From the IMG/VR virus record IMGVR_UViG_3300034375_007958, positions 62,001 through 126,000 of that record: a stretch of DNA of 64,000 nucleotides; one strand, given 5' to 3'. Position 1 is the first letter of the stretch. Every line of letters starts with the position of its first letter. Shown piece by piece: positions 6,666-7,769 of the stretch. Position numbers and translations under genes: made by a program. The notes below the pieces were generated by a model. It did no database searches. It was not told the DNA's origin and saw only the letters and a program-made list of their open reading frames with translations. This DNA is from a virus.

Positions 6666-6700
6666 GCCTGGACTTATATTTATAAATGAAAAAAGGCTCC
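6666..6700. repeat. 35-bp direct repeat, copy 2
   Basis: Second copy of 6371-6405. Here it joins the tmRNA terminator to a late-type promoter (TATAAATA at 6677-6684, minus strand) for the gene at 6426-6650. Confidence 0.85.
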
Positions 6701-6713
6701 GGAGAGCCTTTTT
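6689..6713 (-). terminator. tmRNA terminator
   Basis: Perfect GGCTC/GAGCC hairpin with CGGA loop flanked by A and T tracts, so it can act in both directions. It lies at the 3' end of the tmRNA coding piece. Confidence 0.85.
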
Positions 6714-6892
6714 GGTTATTGGGTTACAAGGTTACCAACCCCGGCTTAGCCTCAAGCGGCTAGAGCAAATACCTCATCATTGGCATTTATAGTTTTTTGC
6801 TTCTTCGGCCAGGTAGTCCTAACCCTTGGGCTTTCGCATTGCCCTGCTGTCCACTCTGTTACTCCGTGCCCTGTCGAAACCTGTACACCCCC
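6714..6892 (-). ncRNA. ssrA: tmRNA coding piece with proteolysis tag ANDEVFALAA
   Basis: Starts GGGGGTGTACAGGTTTCGAC. The resume codon is GCC at 6782-6784, and the frame reads ANDEVFALAA then TGA (6752-6754), ending in the ALAA recognised by ClpX and related proteases. A GC-rich pseudoknot-like region follows the tag. The 3' end is placed before the terminator. Confidence 0.9.
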
Positions 6893-6959
6893 ATCATAAA
6901 CACACAGTTTGGACTTTTATTATGAGCATTATTATCTCATTCACCAGTAGACCATGTGC

Positions 6960-7769
6960 TTATGGTGGAGGTGGCGGGAGTCGAACCCGCGTCCAGAACA
7001 CCTTTCTCTTCGCCTCTTCCCTTGCGGGGTTTACAGCAATACTCTTATTTAAGACTTCTTTAATCTTAACCAAGTTCTTGTATTGTAGCACATTATCGGA
7101 CATTGTGTCAACACTTTGAATAATCAAATCGCGCCGAGCAGGGTCTTGCCAAATTTCCCCTAATGGACAAGTATCAACTCTGACCAAAAACACTGCGGTT
7201 TCGCCATCGCCCACAGGCATTGTGGTCTGTGTTTCCATTCTAAAGTAGAGGTCCTCTATAGTAGTTTGGTCAGTAACTTCGGGCTTTGCCATTTTAGGAT
7301 GATTACTGAGTTCGCCTGTAGTGCTTATGGTCCAAACATGCCTACGCATACTTTTGGTGGCAATAACTTCGGCGATACGTTGACTCATTTGTCGTAGCAG
7401 TTCGCCATCTGCAACAGGAGCGTGTATCTCTGCCAGGCTTTGTCCAATACGTTCACTTGGTATCCAACTGCTGGGGTAGCAGAAACAGATTGCTTCCAGC
7501 ACGCCTTTGTGCATAATAGCAACATCTTCTTTAAACAAAAATGCAAATTCTACTATGTCACTTATGGGATTTAATCCTAGAACTTGGGAGGCTTTTTCAA
7601 CCAAGTCAGGCCTGCGGCAATCAAACAGATCGGATCCATACTTGTCTAATTCTGCTAACTTGGATGTTATGTGAGACATGTCCTCTACAGGAACAAATGC
7701 TGGACCTTCATTAGCGGCCATGGTGGGACCGACCCTATAAGGAACCGTAACTGGAAAATAGTCAATCAC
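6960..7769 (-). CDS. DUF3445 (heme-dependent oxidative N-demethylase-like) protein
   Basis: 269 codons. Segments typical of the DUF3445/HDOD family are visible: FLFKEDVAIMHKG and CFCYPSSWIPSERIGQ followed by LAEIHAPV (about 78-118), and YFRMETQTT ... AVFLVRVDTCPLGEI (about 175-205). The family oxidatively removes methyl groups from amines. Start is GTG at 7769, supported by an upstream micro-ORF whose TAG overlaps it. The last 35 or so codons run through the tmRNA acceptor piece, so the terminal PPPPP is the CCTCCACCA end read as protein. The domain itself probably ends near KNLVKIKEVL. Unusual cargo for a phage. Confidence 0.7.
   Translation of the reverse strand: MIDYFPVTVPYRVGPTMAANEGPAFVPVEDMSHITSKLAELDKYGSDLFDCRRPDLVEKASQVLGLNPISDIVEFAFLFKEDVAIMHKGVLEAICFCYPSSWIPSERIGQSLAEIHAPVADGELLRQMSQRIAEVIATKSMRRHVWTISTTGELSNHPKMAKPEVTDQTTIEDLYFRMETQTTMPVGDGETAVFLVRVDTCPLGEIWQDPARRDLIIQSVDTMSDNVLQYKNLVKIKEVLNKSIAVNPAREEAKRKVFWTRVRLPPPPP
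6963..7040 (-). ncRNA. ssrA: tmRNA acceptor piece
   Basis: Carries the T arm and the encoded CCA (6963-6965). Its 5' boundary near 7040 is a guess. The piece lies entirely within the 3' end of the DUF3445 reading frame. Confidence 0.8.
7082..7111 (-). promoter_or_regulatory. Internal sigma70 promoter for the tmRNA
   Basis: TTGACA (7106-7111), 18-nt spacer, TACAAT (7082-7087), inside the coding sequence of the DUF3445 gene and about 10-40 nt ahead of the acceptor piece. Confidence 0.8.

Follow-up and report, generated by a model that had tools for sequence, protein, structure and literature searches.

The gene studied here, which belongs to a large uncultured phage, is an ssrA that is intact and circularly permuted (two-piece), with a structure of the betaproteobacterial type. 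A tmRNA releases ribosomes that have stalled and marks the incomplete proteins for degradation, and we consider it highly probable that this one works in ribosome rescue with partners from the host of the phage. The gene looks functional; its two pieces, alanine identity pair, helices, tag, promoter and terminator are all intact in the sequence. That the RNA itself is split into two pieces is suggested by the form of the gene.

Identity and structure of the tmRNA gene

Within the window (the whole 64-kb stretch of DNA that was analysed), ARAGORN called a single RNA gene, a permuted tmRNA ('tmRNA*') on the minus strand at 7055-6661 with the tag ANDEVFALAA. Two Rfam matches in the window exceeded their curated cut-offs and both fell at this locus: RF01850 beta_tmRNA, with 137.3 bits (cut-off 84; E 8e-42, full model 1-331, at 7087-6687), and RF04321 tmRNA_permuted, with 110.4 bits (cut-off 47; E 1e-20, full model, at 7038-6752). 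Both scores are far above these limits and are not due to chance, and beta_tmRNA is the best lineage model of its clan (alpha, beta, cyano). A preliminary description of this DNA had placed a permuted tmRNA on the minus strand at 7111-6689; the permuted covariance model bears this out, and the encoded CCA, the GGGGGTG start of the coding piece and the T arm all lie where they had been described (Table 1).

The acceptor piece lies 5' of the coding piece in the gene, an order matched by the permuted model. Its T arm reads GCGGG/TTCGACT/CCCGC, and the acceptor stem that it forms with the start of the coding piece, GGGGGUG/CACCUCC, has 7 bp with a G3-U70 pair, a discriminator A and an encoded CCA (6963-6990 with 6886-6892). 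This stem, which the preliminary description had already noted, was present in the sequence as well as in the co-fold of the pieces. In the coding piece, the D-loop signature GGUUUCGACAGG and the resume-codon context AUAAAUGCC match the family consensus in the Rfam alignment. The 70-nt spacer folds to a 12-bp stem which is stacked on, or extends, the acceptor stem (fold z-score -2.55), and this modelled fold-back would be as expected of a precursor.

Table 1. Features of the tmRNA locus (window coordinates)
Feature	Position	Strand	Basis or remark
Upstream ORF, 269 aa, HODM_asu-like (PF11927)	6960..7769	-	Pfam, 97.7 bits
Predicted sigma-70-type promoter, TTGACA-18 nt-TACAAT, TG before the -10 (extended -10)	7082..7111	-	11/12 consensus matches
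Junction TTAAATAAG	7044..7052	-	Common to the L042 HODM gene (TTAAATAAA) and the L200 tmRNA leader (TTAAATAAG)
Acceptor (tRNA-like 3') piece	6963..7042, 5' end approximate	-	Full-length RF01850/RF04321; encoded CCA terminates at 6963
14-nt insertion AACCCCGCAAGGGA in the acceptor piece, small hairpin CCC-CGCAA-GGG	7018..7031	-	Comparison with the closest phage tmRNAs
Intervening segment, 70 nt	6893..6962	-	Sequence; presumed excised by RNase P and 3' processing
Coding (mRNA-like) piece, 5' end GGGGGUG	6714..6892 (GGGGGTG 6892-6886)	-	Rfam and ARAGORN
Tag frame ANDEVFALAA, then stop TGA	6752..6784	-	ARAGORN; Ala resume codon, hydrophobic ...ALAA end
Intrinsic terminator, 10-pair stem, 4-nt loop, T-rich tail	6690..6713	-	Sequence and folding

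The gene has its own predicted promoter and a strong predicted terminator, in agreement with the preliminary description, and the promoter overlaps the upstream ORF in its 3' part. The window has 15 sites that match the promoter consensus at 11 or more of 12 positions; one is on the plus strand and 14 are on the minus strand, which is the coding strand of most genes. This strand bias suggests that the class of site is used and that it follows the direction of transcription. Immediately past the terminator, at 6677-6684, lies a T4-late-like TATAAATA, ahead of the next small gene (DUF6356). The motif TATAAATA, which resembles T4 late promoters, occurs seven times in the window, here, at 6382-6389 and at five further sites, always on the minus strand and in several cases just before an ATG; two of the copies fall within a repeated stretch with ...GCCTTTTTTCATTTATAAATAT.AGTCCAGGCT. 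No glutamine riboswitch was found at the tmRNA locus in the Rfam scan of the window.

Pairing between the two pieces

In the co-fold of the two pieces, the T arm and the 7-bp acceptor stem formed, and two more helices joined one piece to the other. The outer of these includes the strand UGCUGU starting at 7038. The energy gained on co-folding was -16.0 kcal/mol, against a mean of -8.0 for shuffled partners (sd 3.8, minimum -26.0); a few shuffled partners equalled or bettered the native one, and the pairing energy is not decisive by itself. We also compared native with swapped partners in 29 phage sequences, uncorrected for relatedness. The inner helix held 6.1 of 7 pairs with native partners and 5.4 with swapped ones, a native value that none of 10,000 permutations reached, and for the outer helix none of 2,000 swapped-partner permutations reached the native value. 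Because permutation leaves relatedness in, the case for these helices rests on the compensatory exchanges themselves, which occur at several pairs of the inner helix across the 29 sequences (U-A/C-G, U-G/C-G/G-C/U-A, G-C/A-U/C-G and U-A/C-G/U-G/A-U). Judged by these exchanges, the inter-piece helices are maintained by compensatory change in the 28 phage relatives, in line with the pairing beyond the acceptor stem on which the preliminary description had depended.

The phage record

The source is a 167,330-bp IMG/VR virus record, classed as linear, which encodes virion structural proteins, helicases, endolysins, RNR, DNA ligase and a DNA-polymerase-III-alpha-like protein. The tmRNA lies in a phage genome and not in a host contig. 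Models for terminase (PF03237) and Gp23 (PF07068) had no hit in the record, the Gp23 search having been run without a positive control. There are 16 tRNA genes, 15 of them clustered in addition to a tRNA-Arg. The window also holds phage UvdE endonuclease, fatty-acid desaturase-like and Hsp20 genes at 25039-26106, 31368-32114 and 41538-42032.

A search of the 167-kb record, a linear and possibly incomplete one, found neither SmpB (PF01668) nor ClpP, and SmpB was likewise not found in 33 tmRNA-bearing or related viral records. With no SmpB detected in the record, the host would have to supply it.

The tag peptide

A tag of the form ANDE...ALAA resembles those of betaproteobacteria. Relatives of the gene retain the tag or its form, and their codon changes are mostly silent, one example of such drift being GCC AAT GAT GAG GTA TTT GCT CTA to GCA AAC GAT GAA GTT TAC GCA CTA. 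Contig L135 has the tag ANDEVYALAA, with third bases altered at most codons, L009 has ANDELFAIAA and L200 has ANDSQFALAA. The tag is of the proteolysis type, and this pattern of change places it under coding constraint.

This constraint matters for the suggestion that the phage RNA acts mainly as a decoy, titrating SmpB or blocking the host tmRNA, a role that has been suggested for mycobacteriophage DS6A and its TLD-only tmRNA. Such an effect has a precedent in that a TLD-only molecule like that of DS6A is reported to inhibit tmRNA strongly, perhaps by titration of SmpB (PMC4131195; see also PMC11915505), and with no SmpB detected in the phage record the RNA must compete with the host tmRNA. 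Here, however, the tag, the coding piece and the resume context have all stayed intact and the tag changes are mainly silent, whereas a pure decoy would have no use for such parts, and we regard this role as quite unlikely.

Across 84,980 species genomes, the codon pattern for ANDEVFALAA, with the stop restricted to TAA or TGA, had a single occurrence, on a Flavobacteriales MAG contig of 6.7 kb. This contig has a permuted tmRNA, for which alpha_tmRNA is the best lineage model, together with a gene of the phage Hsp20 family PHROG 432, and it appears to be phage-derived. Since the only genome match carries a phage Hsp20-family gene, the tag looks phage-typical. Host assignment from the tag was rejected, its one match among these genomes being phage-like. 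The beta type does not name the host either, because Acinetobacter and Stenotrophomonas phages have tmRNAs of this type as well. Simple parsing of other viral permuted tmRNAs gave tag readings that would be unusual or long: ADAELVAA/ADQELVAA (L158-L184), AFTSLDMSMASEGELLAA (L160-L187) and ADTFDFTAMSFTGNTV...VALAA (L172/L173).

Distribution and closest known systems

The preliminary description had regarded an intact permuted tmRNA in a phage as unusual, a claim that fails, as phage-borne two-piece tmRNAs are a kind already known from many water-dwelling phages. One survey counted 133 unique tmRNA structures in 402 phages; of the 53 that were two-piece, 50 came from marine or aquatic samples (PMC9004378). 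A list of 79 unique bacteriophage tmRNA sequences is given elsewhere (PMC11915505). Three scans of IMG/VR, using a strict acceptor-spacer-coding pattern, yielded 99 further permuted-tmRNA contigs (40, 24 and 35). Of 25 long contigs that belong to the lineage of the phage's DNA polymerase gene, 13 also had a permuted tmRNA over the cut-off, a recurrence which argues that the gene is retained. An ancestral site beside the DNA polymerase gene was rejected, a tmRNA being within reach at only 2 of 80 DNA-polymerase loci. A plasmid search for a bacterial relative returned short T-arm matches only.

The Methylophilales OM43 phage Melnitz, whose two-piece tmRNA lies behind an early promoter and between terminators and for which maintenance and recycling hypotheses were put forward (PMC9004378), is likewise a large myophage with a permuted tmRNA, flanking terminators and similar functional proposals. 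It differs in that its tmRNA was placed with Alphaproteobacteria (PMC9004378), whereas beta_tmRNA is the best model here, and in having a glutamine riboswitch and different neighbours. Pelagibacter phage Mosig (MT647606) is also a large myophage with a permuted call and an RF04321 match, but its best lineage model is alpha_tmRNA instead of beta_tmRNA and its neighbours are different. Beta-type permuted tmRNAs with a tag are shared by the Stenotrophomonas Menderavirus (Marzo), Alcaligenes phage QDWS595 and Acinetobacter phage BUCT628, although these belong to other phage groups and have the tags ANDNVYAAAA, VAANDDSYTVRIAA and ANDNVFGAKTLAA. In QDWS595 and Marzo the tmRNA lies in or near tRNA clusters. 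The permuted tmRNAs of QDWS595 (L201 1145-1521) and BUCT628 (L204 1150-1483) are unannotated; the ssrA of Acinetobacter itself has the standard one-piece form.

Betaproteobacterial ssrA (RF01850) shares its structural type, gene order, overall form and full-length model match with the window tmRNA. The latter differs in being phage-borne, in the 14-nt insertion in its acceptor piece and in its exact tag, for which the search of bacterial genomes gave only the one apparently phage-derived contig.

The junction with the upstream gene

The upstream ORF is HODM-like (haem-dependent oxidative N-demethylase type). Relatives occur in 11 viral contigs; no match was found in isolate phages, and no paper was found on phage HODM-like genes. 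The frame of the ORF traverses the entire acceptor piece and ends at a TAA just beyond the CCA, with tmRNA sequence from about residue 242 onward, where it reads ...KEVLNKSIAVNPAREEAKRKVFWTRVRLPPPPP before the stop. A relative on contig L042, 65% identical and without a tmRNA, stops at ...EILNKYFNGGIK / ...KEILNKYFNGGIK and has TTAAATAAA at the matching place in its gene. On L200, TTAAATAAG precedes the tmRNA and its TAA is the stop of that contig's own upstream frame. The simplest reading of this comparison is that a tmRNA cassette was joined out of frame to the end of the HODM gene at the TTAAATAAG microhomology. Such a join would have cost the HODM gene its stop and would explain why the tmRNA promoter is now upstream of the join and inside the gene.

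The 14-nt insertion AACCCCGCAAGGGA was seen in only one other viral contig, L200. Both this insertion and the ORF read-through could impair the acceptor piece. The closest tmRNAs (L014, L017, L036 and L041) are 87-90% identical over about 260-270 nt and have the same tag, but differ from the window tmRNA in having a conserved 70-nt leader and other neighbours. These differences in neighbours and leader suggest that the gene moves between sites as a portable cassette. The leader of about 70 nt (GGATCTGACGAGCAGTAATG...GATCC) stands before related tmRNAs in differing contexts (L014:4247-4266(-), L017, L024, L036 and L041); it had no Rfam match and its fold was unremarkable (z -0.5).

A junction of this kind raises the question of whether the gene is a passenger, a relic of a host ssrA acquired by recombination and not under selection for any role in the phage. 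The apparent microhomology join to the end of a gene, with loss of the upstream stop, speaks for this, and ssrA is established as a frequent site of exchange (also PMC11915505). All of the features tested are nevertheless intact, the helices co-vary and the tags are retained across many phage sequences, and the gene recurs in about half of the long contigs of its lineage. A tag confined to one phage-like contig among the species genomes also means that the gene was not newly copied from a known host. We consider a passenger very improbable and favour a retained gene that serves the phage in ribosome rescue.

A phage ClpA-type protein and the possible fate of tagged products

The record encodes a 764-aa ClpA-type protein (G000 21791-24085, outside the window) that adjoins DnaJ. 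It matches E. coli ClpA with 599 bits over its length. Both Walker A motifs are present, as are the two pore loops (KYRG and GYVG), and its IGF aligns with IGL, the loop by which E. coli ClpA docks on ClpP. We name it ClpA-type and not ClpA because its 818 bits to the ClpA equivalog model are below the curated cut-off of 993. The ClpA-type and DnaJ pair occupies G000:C1:21791-24927 (L194:1791-4927), and Pseudomonas phage PA5oct has the same DnaJ-ClpA pair.

If one considers that the phage unfoldase may preferentially read ANDEVFALAA and feed tagged proteins to host ClpP, then the two genes would form a matched tag-and-unfold pathway, and proteolysis of stalled products would be under phage control during infection. 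We think such matching unlikely. A full ClpA match was present in only 2 of 50 records, both with a tmRNA. Seven other ClpA phage records had a permuted tmRNA in one case and a standard tmRNA above the cut-off in none. The link between ClpA and tmRNA is weak, and a linked phage module was rejected as a general rule on the count from these seven records.

The same genes bear on the proposal, made by the Melnitz authors for this type of gene (PMC9004378), that a phage tags and degrades nascent host proteins early in infection to recycle their amino acids. The promoter here is of an early type and the phage also has the ClpA-type unfoldase, which fit this idea. Against this, tmRNA acts on stalled ribosomes whatever the message, no selectivity is evident from the sequence, and coexistence of ClpA and tmRNA is not a general pattern. 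Recycling of host proteins as the role of the gene is in our view very improbable, and general rescue of stalled ribosomes remains the preferred reading.

Discussion

Taken together, these data suggest a course of events in which the host RNA polymerase would transcribe the phage tmRNA early, and host RNase P with 3'-end enzymes would excise the 70-nt spacer. The two pieces would remain paired, be charged with alanine by the host AlaRS and be bound by host SmpB and EF-Tu. The tmRNA could then enter stalled ribosomes and add (A)ANDEVFALAA, which would free ribosomes during infection, when mRNA degradation makes many stalled complexes. Tagged products would pass to Clp proteases, possibly via the phage ClpA-type unfoldase docked on host ClpP. 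Most likely, then, the phage tmRNA works with host SmpB and ClpP. Alongside the 16 phage tRNA genes, it may be seen as translation support. It is plausible that ribosome rescue is sustained in this way after host shutdown, and a similar role, in maintaining the hijacked machinery, has already been proposed (PMC9004378).

That a single phage has a tmRNA, a ClpA-type unfoldase and as many as 16 tRNA genes provides a concrete case in which phage-controlled proteolysis may be considered, albeit one in which the tmRNA-ClpA pairing is not general. What merits further attention here is the mobility of the cassette, the junction with its read-through, and the presence of the ClpA-type unfoldase. Viewed with its viral relatives, the gene indicates that permuted tmRNAs of the beta type recur in phage genomes, where they are no mere oddity, and form a cassette that moves between genomic sites. 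This recurrence and mobility would make phage support of ribosome rescue a testable and widespread strategy.
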